Virus record (IMG/VR): IMGVR_UViG_3300018933_000001
Coordinates: 82,538 to 146,537 of that record
DNA: 64,000 nucleotides
Origin: a virus
Reading direction: 5' to 3' (one strand)
Position numbers and translations under genes: made by a program. This document shows positions 7,762-63,705 of the stretch, piece by piece; position 1 is the stretch's first letter, and every line of letters begins with the position of its first letter. A model generated the notes under the pieces. It was not told the DNA's origin. It was given only the letters and a program-made list of their open reading frames with translations, and searched no databases.

Positions 7762-7779
7762 CTTATTAGGAGAAAATAA

Positions 7780-8037
7780 ATGGTTGCTAGTTATATCAAC
7801 GGTCAGAATGAGAGATTTTTTGTTATAGAAGACTACACTATTAATGGATTTAATATCCAAATAGATAAGAAAGAAGCTACTGAAGAGTTCTATGGTAAAA
7901 TATATAACTCTTATGAGCCTTATGATTTAATCAAGACTATGAAAGATTTAGATTTAGAGAATCTAAAAAATAGTATTAAGGATTATACTTATAAGCTAAT
8001 TTTATTAGGGAACTCTTTAATAATGAGTAATTACTAA
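7780..8037 (+). CDS. HicB-like unit protein, 85 aa
   Basis: 'YTINGFNIQIDKKEA ... FYGKIYN ... LENLKNSIKDYTYKL' matches the strand-strand-helix pattern of the HicB-like family. The start has AGGAG 6-7 bases upstream. Last plus-strand gene before the minus-strand helicase; no classical terminator follows. Confidence 0.6.
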   Translation: MVASYINGQNERFFVIEDYTINGFNIQIDKKEATEEFYGKIYNSYEPYDLIKTMKDLDLENLKNSIKDYTYKLILLGNSLIMSNY

Positions 8038-10145: not shown

Positions 10146-10448
10146 ATGGAATACAGAGACTTTACCTTACAAATTACAGTAGACTCAGATGATGAGTGTG
10201 TAATTGGAGAAATAAAACAGTTAGTAGGTTTAAATGAAAGTAAGTATAAGTTCTCAGCTAAAACGATATCTGAATTAAAGAAAAAATTTTATCAGCTAAT
10301 AGATGAAAGAATTGAGGAATTAGGGCAAGATGTCTTTGGAGATATTTACAGTGGAGGAGACGATAAAGTTCCCCAGAAGTTATTAGATATTTTAAAGACT
10401 GACTACGACGAGTATATGATGATGAATCCTAAATTCTATTTATTTTAA
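10146..10448 (+). CDS. Single-unit HicB-like protein, 100 aa
   Basis: One of the clearest members: 'MEYRDFTLQITVDSDDECVIGEI' (strands), then 'TISELKKKFYQLIDERIEELG' (helix). The C-terminal extension ends 'YDEYMMMNPKFYLF'. HicB antitoxins share this partial RNase H-like layout, but no HicA toxin is adjacent. ATG 10146 is used; an ATG at 10141 is out of frame. Confidence 0.65.
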   Translation: MEYRDFTLQITVDSDDECVIGEIKQLVGLNESKYKFSAKTISELKKKFYQLIDERIEELGQDVFGDIYSGGDDKVPQKLLDILKTDYDEYMMMNPKFYLF

Positions 10449-10719
10449 ACAATAGTGGAGTGTAGACTTTTTCTAAAATTTGTACTTACATATAGTCCGC
10501 AGATTTCAAGAAATGTCTACATTCTATTTTTGACCCGAAAGTTAAAATAAATAGCTTATAAGTGAGGTACGAGCTAAATACAGAGTAGAGGATTAATAAA
10601 TTGTGTCAGTCCTTAGAAATTTATTCTAAAGTGGTAGAAATAAAATGAATTATTATAGCCAATAGTCAAGTAGAAAACAGTCTCGAAACGAGTTCTTACG
10701 AGTTAAAAAACTTCTACCA
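10449..10719 (+). other. Non-coding structured stretch before the tRNA-Lys
   Basis: No frame of useful length is present. Several inverted repeats are: TGTAGAC (10461-10467) with GTCTACA (10515-10521), TAGCT/AGCTA near 10550-10575, TTAGAA/TTCTAA near 10615-10630, and CTCGAAACGAG near 10682. It could encode a small RNA or carry a control region or origin; nothing decides between these. Confidence 0.35.
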
Positions 10720-10728
10720 TGCTATAAT
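10720..10728 (+). promoter_or_regulatory. Extended -10 promoter for tRNA-Lys
   Basis: TGCTATAAT is a perfect extended -10 element (TGnTATAAT). It ends 11 bases before the first base of the tRNA, which places the start point just before the tRNA. The -35 position is poor, as is usual with extended -10 promoters. Confidence 0.6.
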
Positions 10729-10739
10729 TTAAATAACTA

Positions 10740-10811
10740 GGAACCTTGACATAGTGGTTGTGTAGCTGGCTTTTAACCAGTGTTAGGAAGGTTCGATTCC
10801 TTCAGGTTCCA
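10740..10811 (+). tRNA. tRNA-Lys (anticodon TTT)
   Basis: The acceptor stem GGAACCT/AGGTTCC is perfect. The anticodon arm is GCTGG-CTTTTAA-CCAGT with anticodon TTT. The T arm is GAAGG-TTCGATT-CCTTC. The discriminator base is A, and CCA is not encoded. It would read AAA/AAG, abundant in this AT-rich genome. Confidence 0.93.
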
Positions 10812-10839
10812 TTTTTTAATTGAATAAGAGGAAAAGTTC

Positions 10840-11247
10840 ATGCACAAAGGTAAACATAGATTTTCTTACCGAAATTCAGCTATCCAAATAGTAGAGTTTA
10901 TCGATTTTGATAGTGAAGAGATTAGATATGTTACAGATGTCCTTCCTCATAGCTACGATAGTTTAGACTCTTTAATTTCTGATTACAAGAGGTTGATAGA
11001 TAAGAGATTAGAACCTAAAAGAAGAAAGGAAGAAGATGATTTTGATGAAAGGTCAATCTACTATAAAGACCAAGAATTAGAACTAGAAAGAGATATTGTT
11101 ACAGGAAAGGTAGTAGGAGGTAAAACTTATGATTTGTATTCTGAGAGAATGTTTAGACCTTTAGTTAGATTTAAAGGTAAATTAAAAGATTTACGCAGAC
11201 AGTTTGAGAAATACGTAGATGATTATGAGAAGTATTTAATCAAGTAG
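10840..11247 (+). CDS. HicB-like unit protein, 135 aa
   Basis: The N-terminal half ('FSYRNSAIQIVEFID ... SLDSLISDYKRLIDKRLEP') fits one HicB-like unit. A second, weaker unit may follow ('IYYKDQELELERDIVTGKVVG ... KLKDLRRQFEKYVDDYEKYL'), giving a two-unit protein. The start is preceded by AGAGGAAAAG. It follows the tRNA by 28 bases. Confidence 0.65.
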   Translation: MHKGKHRFSYRNSAIQIVEFIDFDSEEIRYVTDVLPHSYDSLDSLISDYKRLIDKRLEPKRRKEEDDFDERSIYYKDQELELERDIVTGKVVGGKTYDLYSERMFRPLVRFKGKLKDLRRQFEKYVDDYEKYLIK

Positions 11248-11286
11248 AGACAAACAAAAAAGTCACATCTATTGAGGGAGAGATAA

Positions 11287-11670
11287 ATGATTACAGAAAC
11301 TTTAGTTATCTTACACGAAAGTAAAGAATGTCCTTGGTCAGATGCTAGAGAATATAGTTGGTACACTAAACATCCAGTAATTAAACGAGTAGGATTTACT
11401 TATAAATCAGATTCTATATTTGGAGGTTCTTATGTTAGAAGTTACTCAAAAACTCATGGAAAAGAAAGTGGTTATATCCCTACTCCAGTATTAGAGAAAC
11501 TTAATTGTGTTTATGAGGAAGAAAAAGAAAAATCTGTTGAAGAACAAGTTAGATACGGACAAAAAATATTAGCTCAAGATTTATTTAACGCTATGCTTCG
11601 TTATTATCCAGAAGCTTTACCAGAAGTAATTAAGTTGTTAGCAAATTTGAAAGCCCGGCTTGAAAAATAG
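11287..11670 (+). CDS. Hypothetical protein, 127 aa
   Basis: Preceded by GAGGGAGAG. The N-terminal half is aromatic and basic ('YSWYTKHPVIKRVGFTYK'); the C-terminal half is helical ('LFNAMLRYYPEALPEVIKLL'). Not recognised; it lacks both the HicB-like and the VGYL patterns. Confidence 0.65.
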   Translation: MITETLVILHESKECPWSDAREYSWYTKHPVIKRVGFTYKSDSIFGGSYVRSYSKTHGKESGYIPTPVLEKLNCVYEEEKEKSVEEQVRYGQKILAQDLFNAMLRYYPEALPEVIKLLANLKARLEK

Positions 11671-11700
11671 ATTACACAATCAATACCGAGGAAGAATAAG

Positions 11701-12018
11701 ATGACTAACTTAGATATAACTTTACCACAGTTCCATTTACTACTAGATCATTACTTAATATCTAAAGACTTAAAGAATAGATTTACTGTTGAAGGGAAAA
11801 ATGTAATATTCAAAGCATTAGTAGAAAAACATTCACACATGATTTGGACAATAGAAGAGATATGTAATGAATATACTGAATTATCTTTAGTTGATTTTTC
11901 TAATAAGTATGCTATAGAAGCAGATGAAGAAGTTATTGACAATTATTTATGTCAAGAAAGTAGTTATGCTTTAGGTTTTACTAAAGATACAGTAGTATTT
12001 CAAGATGTTATTGAGTAA
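11701..12018 (+). CDS. Small acidic phage protein, 105 aa
   Basis: The order of features is a helical segment with a short strand ('VEGKNVIFKALVEKH'), 'WTIEEICNEYTEL', then 'VIDNYLCQESSYALGF' and a final strand 'TVVFQDVI'. It resembles a family of small phage proteins that end in a short 'vi..d.g.vvqdf' strand. I know of no assigned function, and the resemblance is only at pattern level. Confidence 0.6.
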   Translation: MTNLDITLPQFHLLLDHYLISKDLKNRFTVEGKNVIFKALVEKHSHMIWTIEEICNEYTELSLVDFSNKYAIEADEEVIDNYLCQESSYALGFTKDTVVFQDVIE

Positions 12019-12073
12019 AATAAATGATTGTCCGGGATTTTTAGAAGAAGTGAGTTAGGAGAGGAAAGTAGAG

Positions 12074-12700
12074 ATGCTAAAAAAATACTGTGATATTAAC
12101 TATCGCGGACATTTATTAGAGATTGAAGAAAATGAGTATGTACCAGGAAAATTTAATTATAAAGGTAGTTCCAGAGATAAAATTTTATTTCTAGTTTATC
12201 CATATACATTAGAACAAGTTATCAATAGGTTTAGAAGCGCAGTAGATGATATCTTAGGAGAAAGAATTAGAGAAGGAGATAGTCAATTAGTTCTTACTCT
12301 TATCTATAAAAAGTATGAATTGGAGATTTATCAAAGTAATGCACAAAGAACTTATTCAGCTTTTTTACAAAGTTTAGATTTTGCTACTTGGAGTAATTTA
12401 GGTTATGTTTCTATAATTAAAGCTTTTATACAAAGAGTTGAGGATAGATTAAATGGTTTAGATGATGCTCCTATTCAGACTATTTATAATTATAAACAGC
12501 ATCAATTAGTAATTAGAAAACAAGGACTACTATATACTGGTATCTCTTGTGTTCATGGAGAATCTTGGAGACATCAAAGTCATGATTGGGATTTTTTAAT
12601 CAGATGGTTTAAGTCAGATATTGGTGAATTCTCAGATGAGGAGGAAGAGCCACAATTAGTTGAAATGGCTGAGAATTTAGGACTTTACGAATATTTTTAG
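12074..12700 (+). CDS. Three tandem HicB-like units, 208 aa
   Basis: Unit 1 spans about residues 8-65 ('NYRGHLLEIEEN ... LEQVINRFRSAVDDIL'), unit 2 about 76-125 ('IYKKYELEIYQS ... IIKAFIQRVEDRL') and unit 3 about 138-185 ('NYKQHQLVIRKQ ... FLIRWFKSDIGEF'). Each has the first strand, a short second strand and a helix ending near an acidic residue. This is the clearest evidence that the unit is duplicated as a block. The C-terminal tail ends 'NLGLYEYF', reminiscent of 'EAGLYDYY' at 16308. AGGAGAGG precedes the start. Confidence 0.7.
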   Translation: MLKKYCDINYRGHLLEIEENEYVPGKFNYKGSSRDKILFLVYPYTLEQVINRFRSAVDDILGERIREGDSQLVLTLIYKKYELEIYQSNAQRTYSAFLQSLDFATWSNLGYVSIIKAFIQRVEDRLNGLDDAPIQTIYNYKQHQLVIRKQGLLYTGISCVHGESWRHQSHDWDFLIRWFKSDIGEFSDEEEEPQLVEMAENLGLYEYF

Positions 12701-12709
12701 GAGAAGTTA

Positions 12710-13243
12710 ATGAGTAAGTATCAGCACTATAAAAAAGAATTAGAAGATGCCGTTGAATTTATAAATGATATAGGATGTTATGGCTGGTTAGGTGATGGAG
12801 CAAAAAGTTTAGAGAAAATAGCTAAAGAAATGCTATCTACTATTCGAGAGCTAGAACCAGTAGAGATTGACCCAGAGTTCTTTGATTGGCAAAGTAGAAA
12901 GTTTACTCTATATCCTTTAAGCACTAGCATTAGAGAAGTGTATAAAGAGAAATCTGACGGTACAAGAGTTCAAGTAGGGTTATTTTATAATAATGAAAAT
13001 TTAGCTCTTTACAAACCTAGTAAGTTAAGAAGTCCTACAGGTAATCCTAGTTACATTGAAGGATTAAATTGGTCTACTTATTGGTTTTATTTAGATGAGA
13101 CTAATAAGAAAGTAAAATTTACACCTTCTAATAGAATCCATGAGATATTTGAAGACCCTTGGAGTACCTATGAGTTTAATGCTTTAGGTTATAAGACTCC
13201 TAACGGTACTATTGTTCACTATGATTCTTATATTGAGGAATGA
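12710..13243 (+). CDS. VGYL-module family protein, 177 aa
   Basis: The helical N-terminus 'MSKYQHYKKELEDAVEF ... EKIAKEMLSTIREL' corresponds to that at 2238 ('QEMLETIQELEKQ'). The module runs 'VQVGLFYNNENLALYKPSK ... VKFTPSNRIHEI ... NALGYKTPNGTIVHYDSYI'. The mid-segment 'YWFYLDETNKKVKFTPSNRI' is echoed in the broken frame at 13580-13801. Function is unknown. Confidence 0.75.
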   Translation: MSKYQHYKKELEDAVEFINDIGCYGWLGDGAKSLEKIAKEMLSTIRELEPVEIDPEFFDWQSRKFTLYPLSTSIREVYKEKSDGTRVQVGLFYNNENLALYKPSKLRSPTGNPSYIEGLNWSTYWFYLDETNKKVKFTPSNRIHEIFEDPWSTYEFNALGYKTPNGTIVHYDSYIEE

Positions 13244-13246
13244 GAA

Positions 13247-13579
13247 ATGAAAATAAGTGCTGAGTATGAAGGCTTCACTCTAAATATCGAGGAATATTCT
13301 GATAAAGAAGGTGGAATTTACTGGAAAGCTACTTGTAACGAATTAAATAGTTATACCTTTTGTTTTTATCCTAGGCTTTATAGGAGTTTAGATGGTGGCA
13401 TTTCTACATTCAAACGAGAAGTAGTTTTAGCTAAGAAACAGTTAGAGGAACAACACCAAATATTAGATGAGAGATTTGCTCTCGATGCTGCTGCGTTTTT
13501 TAGTAATGATGAAGATAGTGAGATGAAGGAAGAAGATATTCTCCAATTTCCCATTAAAGGTACTAATCCTAGATTTTAA
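13247..13579 (+). CDS. HicB-like unit protein, 110 aa
   Basis: 'AEYEGFTLNIEEYSDKEGG' begins the unit and 'ISTFKREVVLAKKQLEEQ' gives the helix. The C-terminus is acidic. After its TAA stop the same frame stays open for another 73 codons (see 13580), so this may be the first part of a longer protein cut by a stop codon. Confidence 0.65.
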   Translation: MKISAEYEGFTLNIEEYSDKEGGIYWKATCNELNSYTFCFYPRLYRSLDGGISTFKREVVLAKKQLEEQHQILDERFALDAAAFFSNDEDSEMKEEDILQFPIKGTNPRF

Positions 13580-13801
13580 GGTAAGATTGTACATTATCTC
13601 ATTTGGTGGGAAAAAGGTGAAGATAGAGACTTTGTAGGTGAAAAGAAATTAGTTAACACATCAATTCCTAACAAAGAAATAGAAATTGAAACTTTTGAAT
13701 TTATTAAAGGTTGGAGTTTTAAAGAGGGGACAGATTACTATAAAATAATTATCAATAATAAAGAAGTTAAGTTTAGTCCAAAAGAAGTATTTTTCTCTTG
13801 A
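13580..13801 (+). pseudogene. Open frame without start codon, VGYL-like fragment
   Basis: Directly after the TAA at 13577-13579, the same frame runs to a TGA at 13799-13801 with no ATG, GTG or TTG near its beginning. The translation ('HYLIWWEKGEDRDFVGEK', 'YYKIIINNKEVKFSPKEVF') resembles part of the VGYL protein at 12710. It may be the remnant of a gene that lost its start, or the C-terminus of the upstream gene after a nonsense change. Confidence 0.45.
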
Positions 13802-13803
13802 TT

Positions 13804-14127
13804 ATGGGATATTGGATAGATAGAAGAAAAGAAGAAGACGCAGAAATTGCGGGAGTATTGGTGAGTATATTTCCTAGAGGAGGAGAGTGTATGGGAAAAG
13901 TAGTACCAAAATCAGCTAACCCAAGTTCTGATGAAAATATTATACCTAACTCTTTCCCAACTCAAGGGAAAGAAGAACCTCCAGATGATGTTAAATACAA
14001 TGAAGAATGGTGGAAATGGTATTGTAAAGAAAATAACTTAGATGTGAGTTCAGGTAAAAGTTTAAGAGGTGGTAGTTCTAGAGATATTATTAGTTACGAA
14101 GATGTTCAAGATTATTTATCTTTCTAA
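13804..14127 (+). CDS. Hypothetical protein, 107 aa (start uncertain)
   Basis: ATG 13804 gives the longest ATG-initiated form but has no ribosome-binding site. ATG 13891 is in frame and has a very strong AGGAGGAG site, so translation may start there and give a 78-aa product. The sequence is Pro/Ser/Glu-rich with 'EEWWKWYCKENNLDVS' and ends 'SYEDVQDYLSF'. No family is recognised. Confidence 0.55.
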   Translation: MGYWIDRRKEEDAEIAGVLVSIFPRGGECMGKVVPKSANPSSDENIIPNSFPTQGKEEPPDDVKYNEEWWKWYCKENNLDVSSGKSLRGGSSRDIISYEDVQDYLSF

Positions 14128-14130
14128 GTC

Positions 14131-14289
14131 ATGAATAGTAGTTTCTTCCATCAGGGTTATGAGTTACTAATAGTCAAAGATAATTGTATTTATTACGGTC
14201 TTTGCAGAGGGTTAGGTTATTCTAGTAACTCAGATAATGAGCAAGAGTTGAAGAATGATTTTGTTAAATATGTTGGTGGAGTAGTTTAA
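14131..14289 (+). CDS. Mini HicB-like protein, 52 aa
   Basis: A short gene: 'FFHQGYELLIVKDNCIYYGL' followed by 'NEQELKNDFVKYVGGVV'. It is a nearly bare HicB-like unit. It starts three bases after the previous stop, and its own TAA overlaps the ATG of the following disrupted gene (TAATG), which supports it being real. Confidence 0.6.
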   Translation: MNSSFFHQGYELLIVKDNCIYYGLCRGLGYSSNSDNEQELKNDFVKYVGGVV

Positions 14290-14675: not shown

Positions 14676-15608
14676 ATGATATATAGATTTAGAACTAATT
14701 ACAAAGGACACGATTTAGATATCCAAAAGAAAAAAGATAGTGATAAATATATAGGAACCTCTACTTTCTTAAATAACAGATGGAACCATGAAGATTATAG
14801 TGTAGATTTCATTATAAAAAGACATCAGATTGAGATAGATAGAATAGTGGAGCAGCAGAAGAAAATGATAGGAAAGACTTATGAGGAAGTTTATCGTGAG
14901 TGGAGAGGTAATACAAAGGTAATTACTTATAAAAATTGTAAGATGCTTATTACTGCCAGAAAAAGAGCTAAGGATAATCGAATAGTGTATTTAGGAGAGT
15001 TTAGTAAGGACAGATATAAAACTTGGATTAGAACTAGCATTGAAAGCATTCATTACGATAAAGTAATTGCTAAGTTTGAGAGATTTGTGGATGAGTATTG
15101 TACTGATTGGGGAGTTAAGGCTGTATTACAGTATAAAGGTTATGAGATAAAGATTTGCAGAGAAGTGGGTTGTAAGGAGTTCTATTTTGGAAGTGTTCAG
15201 TTTCATAAGAATTCTACTTTTAAACATATTGCAGATACTAGAGAAGAAGTAGAAAGATGTTGTAAAAATAGAATAGATAAAGTGATTTATGAGAAGGAAA
15301 AAGTAAAAATAATTAGTCCTAGGAACGAAAAGATTAAAGAATTAGAAGAGTTGCTAACTAGAATATCTACTCAACTAGAAGAACTGAAAAAAGAGAAAGA
15401 TACTTTAACTTATAAGGGAGTAGTTTTAGAGATAGATACTATACCTGATAGATACGGAAGGGTTAAAGGTCTTCTTAGAAATATTTCTAATCCCGCACCT
15501 TTTGTAGAAGATAATTTAGAGAACTTAAAGAAGTCATTCGAGAGTTATGTAGATAAGCTAGAGAACCAGTACCTTTTATTTTGTAAGTTAACTGGTAGAG
15601 ACTCTTAA
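14676..15608 (+). CDS. Four tandem HicB-like units, 310 aa
   Basis: The units begin 'NYKGHDLDIQKK', 'TYKNCKMLITARK', 'QYKGYEIKICREV' and 'TYKGVVLEIDTIP'; the last three are visibly followed by a helix ending in VDE, ID or VDK ('FERFVDEY', 'KNRIDKVI', 'FESYVDKLE'). A coiled coil ('IKELEELLTRISTQLEELK') separates units three and four. ATG 14676 is preferred over GTG 14667 because GGGAAAG lies at the right distance. A strong terminator follows. No catalytic motif is seen; a binding or scaffolding role is plausible. Confidence 0.7.
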   Translation: MIYRFRTNYKGHDLDIQKKKDSDKYIGTSTFLNNRWNHEDYSVDFIIKRHQIEIDRIVEQQKKMIGKTYEEVYREWRGNTKVITYKNCKMLITARKRAKDNRIVYLGEFSKDRYKTWIRTSIESIHYDKVIAKFERFVDEYCTDWGVKAVLQYKGYEIKICREVGCKEFYFGSVQFHKNSTFKHIADTREEVERCCKNRIDKVIYEKEKVKIISPRNEKIKELEELLTRISTQLEELKKEKDTLTYKGVVLEIDTIPDRYGRVKGLLRNISNPAPFVEDNLENLKKSFESYVDKLENQYLLFCKLTGRDS

Positions 15609-18893: not shown

Positions 18894-19763
18894 ATGTTAG
18901 TACAAAGAGCTGAGGAATTTGCACGTTTAGTTCACAAAAATCAATTCTATGGAGAATTGCCTTACACTGACCACTTAAAAGAAGTTTATTTAACTCTATT
19001 AGATTTTGCAGTTAAAGATGAGATAATTTTAGCTGCTAGTTGGTTGCATCACTCAATAGAAGATACCTATACTACTTATGAGACATTAGAGATTCAGTTT
19101 GGTAAAGAAGTAGCAGATTTGGTTCAATTAGTTACTAATGAAAAAGGAACTAATCGGAAAGAAATACTAGAGAAGACAGCTCCTAAAATCAAAAGTAACG
19201 AGAAAGCTTTAATCTTGAAGTTAGCTGACAGAATAGTAAATACTGAGTGTAGTCTTTTTTATAATGAAAAGCTTTATAAAATGTATGAGAAAGAGTTTCC
19301 TAGATTTAAGACTCTTTTATTTAGAGAAGATGAGAAGAACGATGCTATTTTAAAGCTGTGGAATTATTTAAGTAATCTGTGTGAAAAAAAGAGTTTGAAT
19401 ATTATGATTCAACTAAATACTGAAAAATGGTGGGATGAAGAGAAAGATAAAGAGTTGATAGATAGCTACTCTCTACTATCTTTACTAATTACACCTACCT
19501 CTCATTTAAACGAGCAAGGATACCTAAAGCTAGAAGAACTACTTAAAAACTCTTCTAAAGGTACTAAATTCAAAATAACGATTGAGAGAAATGAACCAGA
19601 AGATGATCCTTGGGTGAGGTTAGCTGGTAAGTATGAAAACGACCCGCAATACGATGAGGTATTGGCACACATAGAAGAATATCGAAAAGAATTAGACGAA
19701 AGAGAAGCTGAGTATTACGATGATTGTTACGAAATAATAGAGGAGAAAGTGTATGACCTGTAA
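18894..19763 (+). CDS. HD-domain hydrolase, RelA/SpoT hydrolase-like, with altered HD motif
   Basis: The first about 130 residues follow the ppGpp-hydrolase pattern: 'AEEFARLVHKNQFYGELPYT', 'DHLKEVYLTLL', 'AASWLHHSIEDTYTTYETL', 'FGKEVADLVQLVTNE' and 'ILKLADRIVN'. The metal ligands H (of DH), H (first of LHH) and D (of LADR) are kept. The Asp of the HD pair is replaced by His ('LHH' instead of 'LHD'), which may reduce or change activity. The C-terminal half is acidic and unassigned. A phage enzyme of this type could cut (p)ppGpp or related nucleotides; the substitution makes a binding-only role possible. It overlaps thyX by 11 bases. Confidence 0.8.
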   Translation: MLVQRAEEFARLVHKNQFYGELPYTDHLKEVYLTLLDFAVKDEIILAASWLHHSIEDTYTTYETLEIQFGKEVADLVQLVTNEKGTNRKEILEKTAPKIKSNEKALILKLADRIVNTECSLFYNEKLYKMYEKEFPRFKTLLFREDEKNDAILKLWNYLSNLCEKKSLNIMIQLNTEKWWDEEKDKELIDSYSLLSLLITPTSHLNEQGYLKLEELLKNSSKGTKFKITIERNEPEDDPWVRLAGKYENDPQYDEVLAHIEEYRKELDEREAEYYDDCYEIIEEKVYDL

Positions 19764-21095: not shown

Positions 21096-22415
21096 TTACA
21101 TGGAGGGAGAGATTTGGCTTTGTTGCTCTATCTGCTTCAAAGCCTTTGCTTCTTCTATTTCTTGTTCAGTTTGAAGAGGTAACCCTAATAAACCTCTAAT
21201 CCTATTATTAATTACAGGGTCATCTCCACTAAGAATCCCCATTGAAACAGCAGTAAAGATATTTTGTAATTGCTGCATTTCTACTCCAGGGTCTGAAGAA
21301 GAATCAATGGTAAATTTACCGTAATCTTTCTGTTTGCCAAAGTTGTTAATAATTATTGGTTTACAGACTTTCTCAATAATTTGGTCTTGAATCTGATTTA
21401 CTACTACTTCTATATTTGCGTCTAAAAGAGTAGACTGCTTTACGGATAGTGTTGCTACCCCGATTGAACCACTACCTTCTTCAAATATTAATACTGGAAC
21501 CCCAAATGCTCTGTGGATGTTCTTATTCAGTTCTGTTAATGCAAAGTTCCAAGAAGGGCTTCCGTCAGATACATTAAGAGCAGTGACATTATTAGCTTTA
21601 TCTGTGACGATGATTGCGTTGTTTTCTACATTAGCTAGTTTTTCATACATTACTTGAGCTGCATTTTTCCTCAAAGGTTGATTGTCTCTTCCCATTAAAG
21701 GCTTACCATAAGCATCAGTAACAGTAGCATTGATAGTAGCAGCACTATCTACTTGAGCAAATAGAATACCAGTAGATAAGTTCTTAATAGATACAATCAT
21801 GTCAGCTAGAACTGCTATTTTAGCTTTCCAGAATGGATATGCAATTGCAGCTTCGGCTTTTCCAAACGGGTCATTGAATATAGTAGCAGCAGAATTAGTT
21901 ACATGGATGATTTTTTTATATGGAATAGGAATGTTAGATTTAGCTCTATCGTTGTAAATTACATATTCAATATATCCTTTTGAACCTTTAAACTTTACTC
22001 TTTCTAAGCTTAGTGGATAAATGCTTTCTAGTTTTAGATAACCTTGTTTATCTAATCTGAAGTTAATTTCTGCTACTGAAAATCCTAATGCTGGGGCAAT
22101 AGCTAATTCTGATACTGCTTTCTTTAGAGTATCCCGCATATTACCAAACATTTCTTGAAGAAAATCAGTTATTTCCGGCTTAGTATGTTGGTATACACCA
22201 AATATATTAGCAGCTCTCAAACACTTAATATCTACGCAAGCTTTTGCTATTGGGTCTTTATGGAGAAAATGTAGAAGTTCAGTAATAGAATGTGTTCCAT
22301 CCCAACTAATCTCTTGAATAGTAGAATCAGATAATTTAGATATTTTAGAAGAATGATTCGTAGTATAAAGCTGTTCTTCAAATTGTCTTGTAGGTTGAGG
22401 ATTACGTGATTTCAT
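21096..22415 (-). CDS. Portal protein, Mu gp29/DUF935-like
   Basis: Portal proteins form the dodecameric ring through which DNA enters the head. The 439-aa product has the DUF935-type layout: an N-terminal 'ISWDGTHSITELLHFLHKDP', 'AKACVDIKCLRAAN', a central wing with 'YPLSLERVKFKG', 'IIHVTNSAATIFNDPFGKAE', and the C-terminal 'HRAFGVPVLIFEEGSGSIG' followed by 'IRGLLGLPLQTEQEIEEA'. It stands alone between plus-strand genes, about 38 kb from the connector gene at 60270. It is well supported as a portal; the exact subfamily is less certain. Confidence 0.82.
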   Translation of the reverse strand: MKSRNPQPTRQFEEQLYTTNHSSKISKLSDSTIQEISWDGTHSITELLHFLHKDPIAKACVDIKCLRAANIFGVYQHTKPEITDFLQEMFGNMRDTLKKAVSELAIAPALGFSVAEINFRLDKQGYLKLESIYPLSLERVKFKGSKGYIEYVIYNDRAKSNIPIPYKKIIHVTNSAATIFNDPFGKAEAAIAYPFWKAKIAVLADMIVSIKNLSTGILFAQVDSAATINATVTDAYGKPLMGRDNQPLRKNAAQVMYEKLANVENNAIIVTDKANNVTALNVSDGSPSWNFALTELNKNIHRAFGVPVLIFEEGSGSIGVATLSVKQSTLLDANIEVVVNQIQDQIIEKVCKPIIINNFGKQKDYGKFTIDSSSDPGVEMQQLQNIFTAVSMGILSGDDPVINNRIRGLLGLPLQTEQEIEEAKALKQIEQQSQISPSM

Positions 22416-23569: not shown

Positions 23570-23829
23570 ATGATTGAAATTAAATTAATGTATGAAGTAG
23601 ATAGTTTTCCCATTATAGGTTACTACTCAGAAGACCACGTTATAAGTTAATGTTTGTTAAAGAGACTCTGTTATCGGAAATAGAAGAATTAGAAGAATGA
23701 CTAGCATTACTTAAGAACAGAGTTACTAATTCAGAAGATATAGGTGTGGGAGATGGAGTAGTTATAGGAACAGGTAAGATAATCAGATTGGTAGGTCAAT
23801 ATCAGGTACTAATGGAAGAGTATGACTAA
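23570..23829 (+). pseudogene. Disrupted small gene(s) before the sulfotransferase fusion
   Basis: ATG 23570 opens 26 codons ('MIEIKLMYEVDSFPIIGYYS'), ending in TAATG. The second frame from 23650 runs 16 codons ('MFVKETLLSEIEELEE') to TGA 23698, and the same frame then stays open to TAA 23827-23829 ('LALLKNRVTNSEDIGVGDG ... YQVLMEEYD'). Read through the TGA, the second frame is a sensible 59-residue coiled-coil protein. This looks like a degenerate gene, but two tiny genes remain possible. Confidence 0.45.
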
Positions 23830-25591
23830 TAAAAAGCTTATATTTATAGTTGGGTGTTCTAGAACCGGAAGTACCTTACTACTTTCTTACTTATGTGGAT
23901 TAAAGAATACTAAGATACTTTATGAGACTAGATGCCTTACTAATTCACTTAATCTATCATCTAGTGATTTTATAGATTACTTAGCTACTATGTTTAATTC
24001 TATTACAGAAGATATAGTAATAGAGAAGACTCCAGAACATTGTTTCTATTTAAATATAATAGAACAACTGAGGAAGGTATGTAAGAGAGATATTCATGTT
24101 ATCTATGTTACTAGACCACCAGTTCCTACTATCTTATCTATATTGAGAGCTAAAGAAGTATGGACAGATATAGACGTATTAGGAGCTTGTGAGAAGTATG
24201 AAGAGTCAATGATTAGTATCTATCATAATCTTATTACTAAGGTACATCATCCTAACAACACAGAAGGAAGAAAGAGTTTATACGTATATAATTGGCAAGA
24301 TAAGTTAATAGAAGGTGTTAGTTACAGAAGTCATGTTATTAGTGCTTATAGTTTTTCTATTAGTTATAAAAGTCTATTAGAAGATGTTTACTTTACCTTA
24401 TATAATCTCTTAGTTACAAAACTACATCTTGGCCTTAGTGACTCAGATATAAGAAGCATAGTAGTTAATAGAGTAAGTAACTTAAGAAAAGTATTACCTC
24501 AAGTGGAAAAACAATTACATCATAATAACTTGTTTAAAGAAGTAGATGTAGTTAATAAAGAGAGACTTAGTAATGTAAGTAAACTAGCTGATGAAGATAA
24601 GAGAAATATTAAGTACATTAATAACTACTTTACTGATAAAGGTAATAAGTTTAATATATATGACTTAGTAACTAAGAAAGAAGTAATAAGTATAGATAAT
24701 GTTCCATTGGTTACTATAGTAGTTCCTCTATATAACAAAGAAAAGTATATAGTAGACACTTTAAACTCTTTATTAAACCAGACTTATGACAATATAAGAG
24801 TAGTAGTAGTAGATGATGCTTCTACTGATAAAAGTTTAGAGGTAGTAGAAGATTATTATAGAAATTTACCTTATACCTTCTTACAACAAAAGATGTGTAT
24901 AGTGAAAAAAAAGAGTAATCAAGGGGTTTCTTCTACTCGTAATATAGGTATTAGCAACCTTAGTAGTGAAAGTGATATATGCTCGTTCTGTGATGCTGAT
25001 GATATATGGGACTCAACCTTAGTAGAAAAGTCAGTAGATACATTCAAGAGATATCCTTATGTAGATTGTGTTTACTCTAGAGTTCTATTACTCAAAGATG
25101 GAGAACTAATAAAGACTCACAGTAAGATTTGCAACGGAGATGTTTATGAAGATAGTTTAGAATATAACTTCCTTAACTGTGGTAGTAATATCTTTGTTAA
25201 AGCTTCAGTATTAGAACAACATAATATTAGATTTAATGTAGAGTATGACGGATGTGAGGATTGGGATTTTCTTATCCAACTAGCTAAAGTAGCAACGTTT
25301 AAATGTACCAAAGAGTATCTAGTAAAATACCGTCAACTATCTAACTCTTTATCTACTAACAAAGAACTTCAAGTAGTTAAGGGGAAGAAGATACTGGAGA
25401 AGTATTTAGGTGTAGGAGCAAGTCAAACTTATAGAGGGGAGAAGTATAGTAGAATATTTACTCGTCTATTTCTTTATTACTTTACTATTAAAAACCTTAA
25501 GTGGTCTTACATAAAAGATTTAGACATTAGTTATATACTTAGAGTTGTAATGTCTAAGTCAAAAGCTTGTGTTAAGTCACATATATTATAA
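23822..25591 (+). CDS. Sulfotransferase-glycosyltransferase (GT2) fusion, 589 aa
   Basis: Residues about 1-150 are sulfotransferase-like, with the 5'-phosphosulfate loop 'IFIVGCSRTGSTLLLSYL' and the 3'-phosphate segment 'IHVIYVTRPPVPTILSIL' (PAPS binding). Residues about 293-530 are a GT-A glycosyltransferase: 'VTIVVPLYNKEKYIVDTLNS', 'VVVVDDASTDKSLEV', 'GVSSTRNIGI' and the metal-binding 'FCDADDIW' at about 388-395, with 'GCEDWDFLIQLAK' as the catalytic region. It may transfer a sugar and a sulfate onto a surface glycan or phage structure. It heads an accessory island with the ferritin-like and ATP-grasp genes. Confidence 0.85.
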   Translation: MTNKKLIFIVGCSRTGSTLLLSYLCGLKNTKILYETRCLTNSLNLSSSDFIDYLATMFNSITEDIVIEKTPEHCFYLNIIEQLRKVCKRDIHVIYVTRPPVPTILSILRAKEVWTDIDVLGACEKYEESMISIYHNLITKVHHPNNTEGRKSLYVYNWQDKLIEGVSYRSHVISAYSFSISYKSLLEDVYFTLYNLLVTKLHLGLSDSDIRSIVVNRVSNLRKVLPQVEKQLHHNNLFKEVDVVNKERLSNVSKLADEDKRNIKYINNYFTDKGNKFNIYDLVTKKEVISIDNVPLVTIVVPLYNKEKYIVDTLNSLLNQTYDNIRVVVVDDASTDKSLEVVEDYYRNLPYTFLQQKMCIVKKKSNQGVSSTRNIGISNLSSESDICSFCDADDIWDSTLVEKSVDTFKRYPYVDCVYSRVLLLKDGELIKTHSKICNGDVYEDSLEYNFLNCGSNIFVKASVLEQHNIRFNVEYDGCEDWDFLIQLAKVATFKCTKEYLVKYRQLSNSLSTNKELQVVKGKKILEKYLGVGASQTYRGEKYSRIFTRLFLYYFTIKNLKWSYIKDLDISYILRVVMSKSKACVKSHIL

Positions 25592-26072: not shown

Positions 26073-26265
26073 TGTATATATTATTGGCTTAGTAGAAGGT
26101 ATTAGGATACTACTTAAGTATGACCCTGATTCATATATCTCTGCTTCTCATGACGTTATTTATTTCTGCGGATGTGAAGAAGTCTCTGAAGAAGATGGAA
26201 AATTACTAGATAAACTAGGTTGGCGGTTTGATAGCGGTGTAGATAGTTGGAGATGTAGTGTATGA
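26044..26265 (+). CDS. Small hypothetical protein, 73 aa
   Basis: ATG 26044 has AGGAG ten bases upstream and is preferred over GTG 26020. The product has 'IYFCGCEEVSEEDGKLLDKL' and ends 'SGVDSWRCSV', with three Cys. It lies between the ferritin-like and ATP-grasp genes and overlaps both, suggesting a shared function. Confidence 0.65.
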   Translation: MKEIIINTSNVYIIGLVEGIRILLKYDPDSYISASHDVIYFCGCEEVSEEDGKLLDKLGWRFDSGVDSWRCSV

Positions 26266-27062
26266 AAGACTTAGAAGTTAGGTGGATTATTGAGAGAGAT
26301 GTTCTGAGCTACACTGATAATCTAGTTAAGTACCTACAAGAGAAAGACATTTACTATAAAGAGACTACGTATCAGGAAGTAGTGTCTCATAAATATAGTA
26401 ATAAGTATGGTTATTTATCAGATGATGAGATAGTAACTATCTTTGTTGGTAGTCTTAGGTTAGCTAAAGAGATTAACAAGTACCCAATATATCCAGGTGT
26501 TATTTGTACATTAAAGAACTTTGAGTGTATTAACTACTATCCTAGCTGGGGTGACTATTTACTAAATAAAGATTGGACTATTACTGTACCACCTCTCTTA
26601 AAGAGACATTGCAGAGAAGGAGATACTACTAAGAAGTTCTTTTTCCGACCTAATGAGGGTGATAAAACCTTTACTGGTGGGTTATTTACTAAATCTGAGC
26701 TAGTGAAGTTGGGATTAGAAGACAATAAAGTAATAATTCAAGCTTGTAAGAAAGATATAAAAGATGAATATAGATTTCTAGTAGTAGATAAAGAAATAGT
26801 TGATTATACTAGATACTTAGATACTCCTAAAAGTGGAATGTATCGAGGAGCTAAATTTCTACTAGAGAATGCTTTACGTAATCCTAGAACTTTTCTACCT
26901 GATAGAGCTTTTACTGTAGATATTGGTGAAAGTAATAACAGAATAGGAGTAGTAGAACTTAACTCTTTTTCTTGTGCCAATCTTTACTCTATGAATATGG
27001 ACAAAGTAGTTCCTGCTATTAACGAGTTAGCTAAGAAGATGTATCTTGAAGAAAATGATTGA
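26262..27062 (+). CDS. ATP-grasp protein (DUF4343 / R2K-like), 266 aa
   Basis: The C-terminal half has ATP-grasp features: 'KFFFRPNEGDKTFTGGLF' (phosphate-binding Lys/Arg region), 'DEYRFLVVDKEIVDYTRYL', 'FTVDIGESN' and the metal-binding 'GVVELNSFSCANLY'. The N-terminus fits the DUF4343 type found in phages. Such proteins are predicted to form amide-type bonds on peptides or proteins. It is the last gene of the island, overlapping its neighbour by ATGA; a promoter for the tRNAs begins at its stop codon. Confidence 0.82.
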   Translation: MKDLEVRWIIERDVLSYTDNLVKYLQEKDIYYKETTYQEVVSHKYSNKYGYLSDDEIVTIFVGSLRLAKEINKYPIYPGVICTLKNFECINYYPSWGDYLLNKDWTITVPPLLKRHCREGDTTKKFFFRPNEGDKTFTGGLFTKSELVKLGLEDNKVIIQACKKDIKDEYRFLVVDKEIVDYTRYLDTPKSGMYRGAKFLLENALRNPRTFLPDRAFTVDIGESNNRIGVVELNSFSCANLYSMNMDKVVPAINELAKKMYLEEND

Positions 27063-59544: not shown

Positions 59545-59881
59545 GACTATCTTCTTTAGTTATGTTATTAGTTATCTTAGTCCATAATGTTAACAATTTA
59601 TCTTCTAAACAAGGTTGATAGATATGAGTACCTTGTCTTAAGTTGCATGATTTGCACGAGTAAAGGAGGTTAAGTTCATTAGTTACTAAAGTAATAGAAT
59701 TATATAGCTTAAGTAGTTTAATAGGAATAATGTGGAATAGATGTCCTTCTCCTAATGATATAGGTAGCCTACATATTGGACATAAATACAATGACTTCCT
59801 AATAAGACTTCTACTAATCTCCCAAGCTTCTCTACTTCTTTTCCAAGTATTAAATTTAGAACGAAATTGACACTTAGACAT
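59528..59881 (-). CDS. HNH-like endonuclease, 117 aa
   Basis: Cys pairs 'LCPICRLPI' and 'YSCKSCNLRQGTH' would hold the structural zinc, with 'HLFHIIPIKLL' between them as the catalytic strand. The usual DH before IIP reads FH, so the His is present but the Asp is not. The final 'CNLRQGTH' gives the CN-x-x-K/Q-type end. Small HNH proteins near head genes often assist packaging. The start overlaps the stop of the gene at 59881. Confidence 0.65.
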   Translation of the reverse strand: MSKCQFRSKFNTWKRSREAWEISRSLIRKSLYLCPICRLPISLGEGHLFHIIPIKLLKLYNSITLVTNELNLLYSCKSCNLRQGTHIYQPCLEDKLLTLWTKITNNITKEDSHEKCT

Positions 59882-60243
59882 TACTTACGCTTTTTACCTT
59901 TATCTGACCTACCATCTTTATCTTTCTTACCAATAGGACTTAGAGGATTAGCTTTATGAGTTAGATAAGCAGTAGTCCCAAGTAATCCACCTGCTATAAC
60001 TGCACCTGCTAACTTACGTTTATAACCTCCAGCTCCTAAAGCTCTATTCATATTATTTTCTCTAATACCTTTGAACATACTAGATGACTTACCTAACTGG
60101 TACCCTCCAAAACCACCAATAGCTGCTGTAGTTCCAATATGAGCTTTAGCTGCGTTAGGACTCCACATAGCTGTTTTTTCTTTCTTCTCTTTTGCAAAAC
60201 TAGCTTGAATATTAGAAGAACCCATAAATGTAATTTTTTTCAT
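59881..60243 (-). CDS. Small basic protein with glycine-rich core, 120 aa
   Basis: Opens 'MKKITFMGSSNIQASFAKEK' and has Gly/Ala-rich spans ('GTTAAIGGFGGYQLG', 'GAVIAGGLLGTTAYL') that could be membrane-associated or packed in the head. The C-terminus is very basic ('KKDKDGRSDKGKKRK'). Its leader 'ITFMG' recurs in the gene at 60878. It may be an internal head or packaged protein. Confidence 0.6.
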   Translation of the reverse strand: MKKITFMGSSNIQASFAKEKKEKTAMWSPNAAKAHIGTTAAIGGFGGYQLGKSSSMFKGIRENNMNRALGAGGYKRKLAGAVIAGGLLGTTAYLTHKANPLSPIGKKDKDGRSDKGKKRK

Positions 60244-60269: not shown

Positions 60270-60881
60270 TTATCCGTACCATAGAGGAATCTCACCATCT
60301 TGAGCAACAGAACGATTCCAATGTCTTCCATCTCCAAAATTAACATCAATATTGTTCTTATTATTCTTATAACTACCTAAGACAGTAAAGTTTTGAGTAG
60401 CAGAAGTCCTTTTATATCCTAGCTCAGGGGTATTTGGAAGTATTAGTCTAGAAGCATTTTGCATTGCATTATCTTCAGGAGCAGATACACCTGGAATATA
60501 GATATTAGTACCTATAAAGTAGCTCTTAAGTAGCTCTTTAGCTTTTTGGTAGATAGTAGAACCTAATCCCCCATCACCTCCTAAACTAGCTATCATTCCT
60601 TGGTCATATAAGGACATCATCAAATCATTAATAACAAATCCTACTACTATCGGTTCTATTAAGGGAATGTCTAAAGGATGTATTGGTAAAATGTATAACA
60701 TCCTAAAGTAAGTATCTATTAATGTCTCATTAGCTAAGATTAGTTCGTGTACTAATTCAACATCTAAATTAGAAGATATAACCGATACATTATCAGAAGG
60801 TATAAGAGACTCAGTAAATATATTAGCTCGTCTACCTAACCTTCTTTGAATTTTCTCTACTGTGCAATATTTATACATCAT
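60270..60881 (-). CDS. Head-tail connector (DUF1320/Mu gp36-like), 203 aa
   Basis: 'YKYCTVEKIQRRLGRRANIF' at the N-terminus, 'LILANETLIDTYFRMLY' and 'LPIHPLDIPLIEPIVVGFVI' with 'NDLMMSLYDQGMI' follow the DUF1320 connector pattern. The C-terminal about 70 residues are extra. The family joins portal to tail. The start codons ATGATG overlap the previous stop. Confidence 0.65.
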   Translation of the reverse strand: MMYKYCTVEKIQRRLGRRANIFTESLIPSDNVSVISSNLDVELVHELILANETLIDTYFRMLYILPIHPLDIPLIEPIVVGFVINDLMMSLYDQGMIASLGGDGGLGSTIYQKAKELLKSYFIGTNIYIPGVSAPEDNAMQNASRLILPNTPELGYKRTSATQNFTVLGSYKNNKNNIDVNFGDGRHWNRSVAQDGEIPLWYG

Positions 60882-61093
60882 CTAAACATTCTACCTATAC
60901 TATGAGCTGTACTAATCCACCGTCTAGTCTCCTGAGCTACTTGAACTCCAGTCTTTACTCTCTCTCTATCTTCTTTATGAGCTAATATACCTGCTTTCTT
61001 AGGTTTCAGTTTACGTTTGTATCTCTTTCTACCCTCTGCATTGGTCTTGCTAAACTCAATATTATTTATATGACCCATAAAAGTAATTCTCAT
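60878..61093 (-). CDS. Small basic protein, 71 aa, with ITFMG leader
   Basis: 'MRITFMGHINNIEFSKTNAE' shares the leader of 59881's product; the rest is Lys/Arg-rich ('GRKRYKRKLKPKKAGILAHK'). Two adjacent late genes with the same leader suggest a shared processing or targeting signal. Confidence 0.6.
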   Translation of the reverse strand: MRITFMGHINNIEFSKTNAEGRKRYKRKLKPKKAGILAHKEDRERVKTGVQVAQETRRWISTAHSIGRMFR

Positions 61094-61094
61094 A

Positions 61095-62654
61095 TTAATC
61101 TTTCTTTCCTTCTATCTGTTTAAGCTCTTTATTGTATTGAATAAGATAGGGTTTAGCTAGATTATGGTAAAGAGCAGGAAACAATATCCCAAATATTACG
61201 TAACTAACTACAAGCACTGCTGTTAGGTTCTTAAAGTTAATATTCTTACCTAAACTTAAAACATTGATATTTAGTAAGTCACTTAACTCAGAAGATAGTT
61301 TAGATTGAGTTTCTTTTATCCTACTAACATCTTCTCTTAAATCTTTAACATCATATTTTAGGTTAGCTACTTCACTAAGAAGGTTATTTCCGTTATTGTG
61401 GAAGATAGTATCATTAAGTCTTTTAAGTTCTTCTTCTATCTTTCTAATAATTATCTCAGCTTTAATTAATCCTTCAGAGCTAGAAGTAAGAGGAGTATCT
61501 ACAAGTTTTCTAAACACATCATTATTAAAATTAGTATTAGTAGAGTAGAGAGTTTTTAGCAGTAAATCAGACCTCTCCTCCATTTCTACTAATTTAGTAG
61601 CTAATGACGCTTCCTCACTTCTATCAATAATTGAAGATAAAACTCTTAAATCTCCATCTCTAATAGCAAGTTTGTTAGACCATTTAGTATCTAAGTGATT
61701 ACCGTCTCTTTTACAGATTTTATAGTTGCTAACTACTAGCTCTACTTCATGGTTAAGTAGCCTCTTAAGCTGTCCTTGCATTGCAATAGTATCTTCAGAA
61801 TTAAGGAGACTGATATCTCTAATATTTTTACCAATAATAGAGCTATCCCAACCTAGTAATTCCTTAGCCTGTTGATTCCAACGAGAAATGTTAAAGTTTC
61901 TATCCCATTCAATTTTTATAAGTAAGCTGCTATTAAAATTCTCTTCATCTAATAAAGCCAATTCAGCCAACCTATTAGACATTAACTCATCTTTAGTAAT
62001 ATCTCTTAAGTAGCTAATAGTTACAACAACATTCTCTCTTAGAATCCTACAAGTATGGTCAAGAACTGTTATATCTTTACCTGATTTAGTAACTAACCTG
62101 TATTTCTGGTAGAAAGATGCTGTACCTCTATCCAAATAAGTCAGTAGCTCAGATTTAAAAGACAGAATATCTTCTGGGTGGACAAAAGAAATATAAGGTT
62201 GAGCTAGTATTTCTTGTTTTGTATATTCAAGAAGCCCAGCTAAATTATCAGATATATCTTCTGCAAGACCCTCTTTTGAGTTAACCCATTGAATAAGAAA
62301 TAGATAGTTTTCTTTAAATAAGGTACTTTCTAATAAACTATCTGACTTTTGACTACCAACTAAGATAATGAAATTGAGATATTTATAACCAAACAAAGTT
62401 AGTGATATCTCTTTCTCACTTCTTGGGTCAGTAACTGTAAAATCTCCAATATTCTCGCCAACCTCAAAAGCTTTATTTAGAAAGTCATAAACAGATTCAG
62501 CATAAATCGGCCCTTGAGCGTTAATAAAGCTACTAATAGGTTTATCTAATCTATCAGTACGGTAGCTAGGGAGATAGTACGTAATACTATCACTTATATA
62601 TCGGTAATAATACTCATCCTCAATTTTTTCAAATAATACACTAAATACAATCAT
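61095..62654 (-). CDS. PAS-domain, coiled-coil, membrane-anchored protein in the lysis region, 519 aa
   Basis: At least two PAS domains are visible: 'LLEYTKQEILAQPYISFVHP' with 'FYQKYRLVTKSGKDITVLDH' (about 145-220), and 'AKELLGWDSSIIGKNIRDIS' with 'YKICKRDGNHLDTKWSNKLA' (about 255-345). An N-terminal region (1-125) may be a third, degenerate sensor domain. A long coiled coil follows ('KYDVKDLREDVSRIKETQSK') and then a C-terminal span 'LTAVLVVSYVIFGILFPALY' with a short basic tail. There is no kinase or cyclase domain. It lies two bases after the small membrane protein gene at 62661 in transcription order, beside the endolysin, so it may sense a cue (light, redox, ligand) that affects lysis. 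That role is inference. Confidence 0.8.
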   Translation of the reverse strand: MIVFSVLFEKIEDEYYYRYISDSITYYLPSYRTDRLDKPISSFINAQGPIYAESVYDFLNKAFEVGENIGDFTVTDPRSEKEISLTLFGYKYLNFIILVGSQKSDSLLESTLFKENYLFLIQWVNSKEGLAEDISDNLAGLLEYTKQEILAQPYISFVHPEDILSFKSELLTYLDRGTASFYQKYRLVTKSGKDITVLDHTCRILRENVVVTISYLRDITKDELMSNRLAELALLDEENFNSSLLIKIEWDRNFNISRWNQQAKELLGWDSSIIGKNIRDISLLNSEDTIAMQGQLKRLLNHEVELVVSNYKICKRDGNHLDTKWSNKLAIRDGDLRVLSSIIDRSEEASLATKLVEMEERSDLLLKTLYSTNTNFNNDVFRKLVDTPLTSSSEGLIKAEIIIRKIEEELKRLNDTIFHNNGNNLLSEVANLKYDVKDLREDVSRIKETQSKLSSELSDLLNINVLSLGKNINFKNLTAVLVVSYVIFGILFPALYHNLAKPYLIQYNKELKQIEGKKD

Positions 62655-62660
62655 TTCATT

Positions 62661-62936
62661 TTATACTTTATGTTTAGGAGTTACTCTAGGAGTTAATAGT
62701 CCTACTGCAATACCTGTCTCCGCACTTTTCTTAATATCCTCATTTACTCTTAGTCTTCCATTAGAAATACCAAATAAACCGACAGTTGAAAGAATTAGAC
62801 TTGTAAAATCTTCTTTAGTTAGTTTCCCATCATAAATCCAGTTAACTACTGGAACATAAGCAACGGACAACCAAAGAGCTAAAGAGAATAGAAAAGTTTT
62901 ACTTAGATATAGAGAGCGTTTCATAGTTTCTTTCAT
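62661..62936 (-). CDS. Probable holin, 91 aa
   Basis: A hydrophobic span 'TFLFSLALWLSVAYVPVVNW' and a second 'FTSLILSTVGLFGISNGRL' flank a charged turn; the C-terminus is basic ('LLTPRVTPKHKV'). Size and position right behind the endolysin support a holin that opens the membrane for the enzyme. Confidence 0.7.
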   Translation of the reverse strand: MKETMKRSLYLSKTFLFSLALWLSVAYVPVVNWIYDGKLTKEDFTSLILSTVGLFGISNGRLRVNEDIKKSAETGIAVGLLTPRVTPKHKV

Positions 62937-62943
62937 AAATTAA

Positions 62944-63705
62944 TTAAGCTGGAAGATGTAACCAATAATTTCCATCTCCTTCAGGTGCGCCAACTTGAGC
63001 AATTAGAGAGTAAGAGTATAAAGTCTCTTTTCCAGTTGTAGGAGTATGAATATAACCGTTATGAGTAAACTCGCCATAAGGGTCATTGACTATAAATGCA
63101 CCTCTACCGTCATAAGCAGAATCATCATATCCAACTACTAGCACAATGTGGCTAGCCTCAGTTAAGTAAGTACCTAAAATTACAGGAGCTTTACTAACAG
63201 CTTCCTTTAACTCTTGAGCAGTTCCAGAAGTAGTAGAATAATGTTTAACTCCGTAGCTTTTAAGTATCGCAGTAATATCTTGCCAAGAAAATCTGTTATA
63301 ACCTAAATCTAAGCACTTGTTGTAGAGTTGGTCAGGAGTTACATTAATCTTATAAAAAGACAGTAACATCGCAACACAGGTCAAGAAGCAAGAAGTATAA
63401 GGATGGTAGTGATTATATATTTGGTAGTAGTAATCAGTTTTCAATACATTCTTAGTAGATTTCTTTTTCTTATCCTCTACTACTTCAACGTGTTCTTTAT
63501 AGATAAACCAACTTCTAATTCCTACTGGACTATCCGGAAAATTAGTAGATAGTTTAATTTCATAATGAGCATCTTTCTCTCTCAAAATCTCAACTTCTAT
63601 TTCTTTACCAGTATCTAACCAGTAAAGATATCTTGGCTGCAACTCGATGAAAGGAATGGCACGACTTTTTAACGGAGTTCGATTAATAATTTTTAGTTTA
63701 GTCAT
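62944..63705 (-). CDS. Endolysin, C39-like cysteine peptidase, 253 aa
   Basis: Catalytic features: 'YYYQIYNHYHPYTSCFLTCV' with oxyanion Gln (about 95) and nucleophile Cys (about 106), 'ASHIVLVVGYDD' with His (186), and 'FIVNDPYGEF' with Asp (208). This is the C39-type papain-like fold. The first about 75 residues look like an SH3-like wall-binding domain ('ELQPRYLYWLDTGKEIEVEI'). It would cut peptide bonds in peptidoglycan at lysis. Confidence 0.85.
   Translation of the reverse strand: MTKLKIINRTPLKSRAIPFIELQPRYLYWLDTGKEIEVEILREKDAHYEIKLSTNFPDSPVGIRSWFIYKEHVEVVEDKKKKSTKNVLKTDYYYQIYNHYHPYTSCFLTCVAMLLSFYKINVTPDQLYNKCLDLGYNRFSWQDITAILKSYGVKHYSTTSGTAQELKEAVSKAPVILGTYLTEASHIVLVVGYDDSAYDGRGAFIVNDPYGEFTHNGYIHTPTTGKETLYSYSLIAQVGAPEGDGNYWLHLPA

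Follow-up and report, generated by a model that had tools for sequence, protein, structure and literature searches.

A predicted tail-anchored PAS protein encoded beside a holin-like gene in the late operon of a cyanophage lineage

RESULTS AND DISCUSSION

The PAS gene lies within the late operon of a distant relative of Pseudanabaena phages

The stretch of DNA analyzed here (the window; 64,000 nucleotides) comes from a viral contig of 146,537 bases, of which it spans positions 82538-146537. The window's final gene runs on into the first bases of the contig, which indicates a circularly permuted and nearly complete assembly. The source phage is a cyanophage of ~146 kb, distantly related to the Pseudanabaena phages Pam2 and PA-SR01; among isolates, these have the major capsid proteins most similar to its own (28% identity over 95%), and their genomes are of similar size. 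Because, in addition, the phage records that match the C39 peptidase described below are all cyanophages, the sequence points to a host that is almost surely a cyanobacterium. No NblA gene was found in the genome, and an Rfam search gave no matches.

The late genes occupy the minus strand, beginning with terminase and continuing with a 1067-aa protein, a 354-aa lipase-like protein, protease/scaffold, proteins of 342 and 277 aa, and major capsid protein, followed by proteins of 150, 153, and 133 aa, the C39 peptidase, a 91-aa holin-like protein, the PAS protein, and proteins of 71 and 203 aa. Beyond the 203-aa gene come further small proteins and, after them, the probable tape measure of 3121 aa. 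Some of these labels come from gene order combined with sequence. Table 1 gives the coordinates around the PAS gene. The earlier note on this DNA had described a PAS sensor embedded in a lysis cassette. As a separate unit, that cassette did not hold up: the C39, holin-like, and PAS genes sit within the head/neck/tail operon. Internal promoters and terminators showed no excess over shuffled sequence.

The placement of the PAS gene between capsid-side and neck/tail genes, all on one strand, would suit a virion or assembly protein, such as a membrane protein located internally or at the neck, in which the PAS folds form a dimerization scaffold and sense nothing. PAS folds can serve for dimerization alone, and the strong conservation of the protein throughout the lineage (see below) also fits such a role. 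Nevertheless, the protein ends in a transmembrane span, has lysis-type neighbors, and resembles no PHROG structural family, and we consider a virion role decidedly unlikely.

Table 1. Features of the PAS gene and its neighbors (positions in the window)
Feature	Coordinates	Strand	Evidence
PAS protein with three PAS-like units, predicted tail-anchored, 519 aa	61095..62654	-	ORF, PAS profiles, predicted fold, purifying selection
N-terminal PAS-like fold, residues 1-115, without Pfam match	62310..62654	-	AF2 model
PAS domain, residues 116-225, with the sole invariant His and Cys (H200, C202)	61980..62309	-	Profiles, alignment, model
PAS domain, residues 236-347	61614..61949	-	NCBIfam profile, model
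Linker plus first coiled coil, residues 348-432, where conservation is highest	61359..61613	-	Conservation, selection
Second coiled-coil stretch, residues 433-470, variable	61245..61358	-	Model, conservation, coiled-coil matches
Single C-terminal transmembrane span, residues 477-495, then a 24-residue charged tail	61170..61226	-	Hydropathy, all 12 members
71-aa basic protein after the PAS gene	60878..61093	-	ORF list; in some relatives an unrelated 116-140-aa protein instead
203-aa protein, weak Mu gp36-like match, conserved anchor on the downstream side	60270..60881	-	Profile search
Putative endolysin, 253 aa, N-terminal SH3-like region and peptidase C39_2	62944..63705	-	PF13529, 1.6e-17
Holin-like protein, 91 aa, two hydrophobic segments, basic C-terminus	62661..62936	-	Hydropathy, alignment

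A putative endolysin and a holin-like protein precede the PAS protein

The catalytic residues of the C39 protein (C106, H186, and D208) are invariant in the four members compared. The protein matches phrog_10051 (“endolysin”; 1e-15) in PHROGs, and some of its cyanophage relatives are likewise annotated as endolysins. The same two-domain protein is found in Microcoleus phage My-WqHQDG (34% over 227 aa), where a 106-aa hydrophobic protein is encoded directly after the C39 gene and no PAS gene follows. No Amidase_2 endolysin was found elsewhere in the genome. The corresponding region of Pam2 and PA-SR01 has no gene annotated as PAS, holin-like, or C39, and tblastn found no relative of the PAS protein in either phage; an RlpA-type lytic transglycosylase has been reported in PA-SR01 in place of lysozyme (PMC10286775).

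Members of the 91-aa family have two hydrophobic segments, a short charged loop, and a basic tail. Judged by hydropathy only, and with the second segment weak, the protein has the attributes of a holin: small size, one to four transmembrane domains (TMDs), a charged C-terminus, and a location beside a putative endolysin gene. Two in-frame ATG codons (M1 and M5) with charged codons between them are present in 11 of the 12 members (ATT in L028), resembling the dual start of lambda S. No holin family in Pfam or PHROGs matched the protein (11 members searched), and matches to Streptococcus helicases and to the S-CAM9 tail fiber were dismissed as chance (E 0.4-3). An hhalign comparison of the family with the 106-aa protein of the Microcoleus phage was weak (probability 34%). 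We infer that the 91-aa protein is a holin and that the C39 protein acts as an endolysin, and we regard the two identities, taken as a pair, as likely.

Domain architecture of the PAS protein

The PAS gene begins with ATG and ends with TAA. As the earlier note had proposed, the ORF, profiles, model, and hydropathy agree on a PAS protein with a coiled coil and a C-terminal span. Three Pfam profiles match above cut-off (PAS_3 [PF08447], 3e-12; PAS_9 [PF13426], 4e-8; PAS [PF00989], 2e-7), each of them in all 12 family members, as does the NCBIfam profile sensory_box (TIGR00229; 3e-14) for the window protein. These matches, above the curated cut-offs, and the PAS fold in the model place the protein in the PAS superfamily. 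“At least two” PAS domains had been claimed; two are detectable by sequence, and the AF2 model of residues 1-350 (12 sequences; mean pLDDT 75.5) contains three PAS-like units in a row, each with the order strand-strand-helix-strand-strand-strand. In the N-terminal unit, strands at residues 3-11 and 14-20, a helix at 53-65, and strands at 67-75, 82-92, and 95-102 reproduce the PAS topology; on the strength of this modeled order, the unit is probably a third, degenerate PAS domain. A Foldseek search of the PDB with the same model returned PpsR (E 2.5e-14), FixL, and DosP, with low TM-scores (about 0.3) that probably reflect the comparison of three domains as one rigid body. Against viral models, the search returned sensor kinases and lone PAS proteins.

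The full-length AF2 model (7 sequences) had a pLDDT of 39 and was not used for folds. Ahead of the span, this low-confidence model and coiled-coil matches indicate a helical, coiled-coil stretch, and comparison of the C-terminal half with the PDB returned just generic coiled coils (Borealin, NEMO, and phosphoprotein). Hydropathy shows a single peak of transmembrane strength, at an equivalent place in all 12 members. A C-terminal span in a protein that has no signal sequence predicts that the PAS protein is tail-anchored, with its PAS units facing the cytoplasm.

Searches of Pfam and NCBIfam and with HisKA found no known output domain (kinase, GGDEF, HTH, or other). The earlier statement that the protein has no output domain is thus sound as regards known domains, yet the protein is most conserved in its linker and first coiled coil, which are likely an output or interaction surface. 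A sensor histidine kinase was rejected, as HisKA (PF00512) gave no match at E≤10, and the same result disposed of a degenerate DHp at residues 383-390, a vaguely H-box-like stretch that lacks the His. A LOV photoreceptor was rejected on the absence of the photoactive-Cys motif GxNCRFLQ from all 12 members. In a check for heme-PAS domains, none of the His residues in the F-alpha helices was invariant; H200, which is, belongs to a strand of PAS1. We recognized no PAS cofactor signature. H200 and C202, both in PAS1 and the only invariant His and Cys of the protein, are candidate ligand or metal contacts.

The absence of an output domain would be expected of a decoy, and the protein might act on the host: made late and anchored in the membrane, it would bind host PAS kinases or a host signal and alter host light/redox signaling or defense during virion maturation. 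PAS modules normally pair with other signaling proteins, and the usual annotation of other viral PAS proteins is sensor kinase or lone PAS domain; both points favor such a role. The late-operon position and the invariant placement beside the holin-like gene argue against it, as do pattern scans of 84,980 prokaryote genomes, which found no sequence homologue, although a decoy needs no sequence likeness. We consider host-directed signaling unlikely.

The PAS fold and tandem arrangement are shared with the bacterial sensors PpsR, FixL, DosP, and MmoS, which end in HTH, kinase, or phosphodiesterase outputs, none of which was found here. The order of coiled coil and C-terminal span recalls XhlA (PF10779), which accompanies the XhlB holin in PBSX-type cassettes and is encoded beside holin and endolysin. 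However, the XhlA profile has 67 positions and no PAS domains, and membership in that family was rejected because the profile did not match at E≤1. Another lysis pair, LysF1a/LysF1b of F1 mycobacteriophage, consists of a 2-TMD and a 1-TMD protein (PMC13056207), and the present locus likewise has a ~90-aa 2-TMD protein beside a 1-TMD membrane protein in a cassette; in LysF1b, however, the TMD is N-terminal and there is no sensor domain, and the hosts and sequences of the two pairs are unrelated. By analogy, the PAS protein could be a second, 1-TM holin component whose PAS part just fixes stoichiometry or dimerization. The XhlA-like order is in keeping with this, and 2-TMD plus 1-TMD pairs are needed for efficient mycobacteriophage lysis (PMC13056207), but at 519 aa the protein far exceeds the 92-150-aa 1-TMD proteins of that study, it lacks the XhlA match, and its predicted N-in/C-out topology is the reverse of that of LysF1b, making a co-holin very unlikely.

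Gene order, selection, and exchange of the holin-like allele

Searched with the PAS alignment, 2.9 million viral contigs yielded 11 metagenomic relatives (PAS identity, 50-92%); a scan with the 91-aa protein recovered the same 11 contigs, and one with the C39 protein recovered 6 of them. In all 12 genomes, the C39 peptidase gene comes first, then the gene for a protein of 90-102 aa that has two hydrophobic segments, and then the PAS gene. The spacing between the holin-like and PAS genes is 4-7 nt throughout, never with an insertion, which is compatible with translational coupling. In the window, this gap is 6 nt, that between the C39 and holin-like genes is 7 nt, and that between the PAS gene and the next gene is 1 nt, correcting the two bases given in the earlier note. 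Small genes have been inserted at other junctions: on either side of the 133-aa gene, between the C39 and holin-like genes (L003), and at several later ones. Scans from anchors outside the trio (133 aa upstream and 195 aa downstream) led back to these contigs and, in addition, to two short ones ending ahead of the PAS position. As all contigs that span the region in both flank scans carry the PAS gene, no PAS-less relative is known. The expected linkage to the holin-like gene in related phages was therefore found at PAS identities down to 50%, and none of the 12 genomes had lost it. Adjacency is nevertheless no proof of a functional link, since the 12 genomes belong to a single syntenic lineage that conserves the entire operon; given these small counts, we take the linkage as supportive.

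Outside this lineage, no PAS relative was found in 50,697 phage records (tblastn) or in PHROGs. Scans of the 84,980 prokaryote genomes with full-length and C-terminal alignments, seeded by short peptide patterns and thus able to miss distant relatives, also found none, and an origin from a host gene was set aside on these two pattern scans.

Pairwise dN/dS was 0.07-0.20 for the PAS protein and about 0-0.10 for the linker and first coiled coil, indicating a functional protein under constraint and not a passenger. Purifying selection is strong and is greatest on residues 348-432. Invariant columns make up 63% of the first coiled coil, 45% of the linker, 29-35% of the PAS units, and 20% of the transmembrane span, which is among the least conserved parts of the protein. 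The holin-like allele has been exchanged: L002 and L003 carry another form of the 91-aa protein (53-57% amino acid identity to the window; 53% for L002), and the C39 and PAS proteins that flank it are 92% identical between the window and these two relatives. Across the swap, DNA identity falls from about 0.9 to 0.55-0.7 in the holin-like gene and returns to about 0.88. Exchange of the allele with no accompanying change in the PAS protein argues against a tight allele-specific lock with the variable parts of the holin. Since the PAS protein works beside either allele, any contact between them must use shared residues; both alleles have an N-terminal RSLY-KTF block and a GRxRVNxDI tail.

A possible role in the timing of lysis

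From its gene position and shape, the PAS protein may take part in timing the burst of the host. Our tentative interpretation, about as apt to prove wrong as right, is that it is a sensor anchored by its tail and facing the cytoplasm, that it modulates the adjacent holin, and that it forms a lineage-specific part of the lysis module. The three N-terminal PAS units, probably dimerized, would be cytoplasmic and would respond to a small ligand or to redox or light conditions in the cyanobacterial cell. From there, the signal would travel through the conserved linker and coiled coil to the membrane end, which would touch the holin-like protein, perhaps at its basic tail (GRxRVNxDIRxSA), and set the moment at which the holin triggers and the C39 endolysin reaches the wall. 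Both the sensing and the physical gating in this scheme are putative. Between a required co-holin and an antiholin-like brake, we lean toward the brake. That the receptor couples the photosynthetic or redox state of the host directly to holin triggering, posttranslationally, is a more specific proposal that we think somewhat unlikely.

The invariant adjacency, the PAS folds, the lack of known outputs, the low dN/dS, the holin-type neighbor, and the cyanophage relatives of the C39 protein support a lysis sensor, with precedents in VqmA (see below), in the 2-TMD plus 1-TMD lysis pairs, and in the tie between cyanophage infection and light; the morphogenesis surroundings, the allele swap, the variable transmembrane span, and the lack of a cofactor signature and of a holin-family match count against it. 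The earlier suggestion that the PAS protein gates the holin or lysis timing accordingly survives in part, favored by linkage in every genome and weakened by their single syntenic lineage and by the exchangeable holin allele.

Known phage lysis sensors act through transcription, as VqmA does, or as periplasmic antiholins, as T4 RI does. The T4 antiholins RI and RIII, which mediate lysis inhibition, offer a functional analogy only, that of a condition sensor modulating holin timing; their topology and signal differ from those of the PAS protein. A cytosolic multi-PAS receptor at the membrane would, if real, be a new route of lysis sensing. Phage PAS proteins and a PAS-controlled lysis decision are already known: VqmA of vibriophage VP882 is a phage-encoded PAS quorum-sensing receptor that controls lysis (PMC8284805). 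Both are phage-encoded PAS sensors, VqmA deciding host lysis and the present protein having a proposed role in it. VqmA, however, combines PAS and DNA-binding domains in a soluble transcription factor that operates a lysis-lysogeny switch, whereas the protein described here lacks a DNA-binding domain, carries a membrane anchor, contains three PAS-like units, and is encoded beside lysis-type genes. Among 5.39 million open papers, we found nothing relevant on PAS domains in connection with cyanophages or holins. Cyanophage infection is light dependent, and lysis is possibly synchronized at night (PMC7238727). A sensor beside the holin, if confirmed, would provide a gene to delete in asking how cyanophage lysis relates to day, night, and host energy.

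Other features of the window and its relatives

The major capsid protein (L005:1201-2373; compared with L002, L003, and L004) is 77-78% identical to those of L002 and L003, against 92% for the PAS and C39 proteins, indicating that the capsid and lysis modules differ in history. The gene immediately after the PAS gene is of either of two unrelated types, one of about 70 aa with the sequence FSKTNAxGRKRYKRKLK (window 60878-61093) and the other of 116-140 aa with MWRPFDSPxKRRKRFIEKNSPYLVPLAVG (L002:9563-9913; L019:10591-11004).

Scattered through the late operon is a family of small basic proteins whose N-termini share a tag like MRKITFxGSTN...FGRGKDKxKRKSR and which also have glycine-zipper stretches and a C-terminus rich in Lys (window 59881-60243 and 60878-61093; L004:801-1025, 2208-2507, 10400-14253, and 15199-15477; L002:6538-6948 and 10491-13246; L020:6686-7096, 7507-7989, and 11425-14247). 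Their insertion junctions differ between relatives, and they give the impression of shuffled modules that share a tag for targeting or packaging. The 354-aa late protein (L005:6524-7588; L004:1-477), which precedes the protease/scaffold gene, combines the common N-terminal tag with a lipase-like stretch (HFITQSAGGMIARD). The C-terminus of the protease/scaffold-like protein resembles adjacent small Gly-rich proteins (L005:5014-6255; L004:1025-2233; L004:2208-2507), as if these were fused and split versions of one module. A 70-aa ORF (L005:13242-13454) resembles an internal piece of the neighboring terminase (11224-12969; IVIQSRLREND...LGGFD...LPLLYSG...KLGFKDWK) and is apparently a partial duplicate on the opposite strand.

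A Mu-type portal gene (PF06074; window 21096-22415, minus strand) lies about 40 kb from the head operon, alone amid genes of the opposite strand. A 289-aa protein (window 18894-19763) has an HD_4 domain (PF13328; 1e-7), a domain of small alarmone hydrolases, and the nonstructural region also encodes a large glycosyltransferase-2 protein (23822-25591) and an R2K-clade ATP-grasp protein (window 26262-27062).
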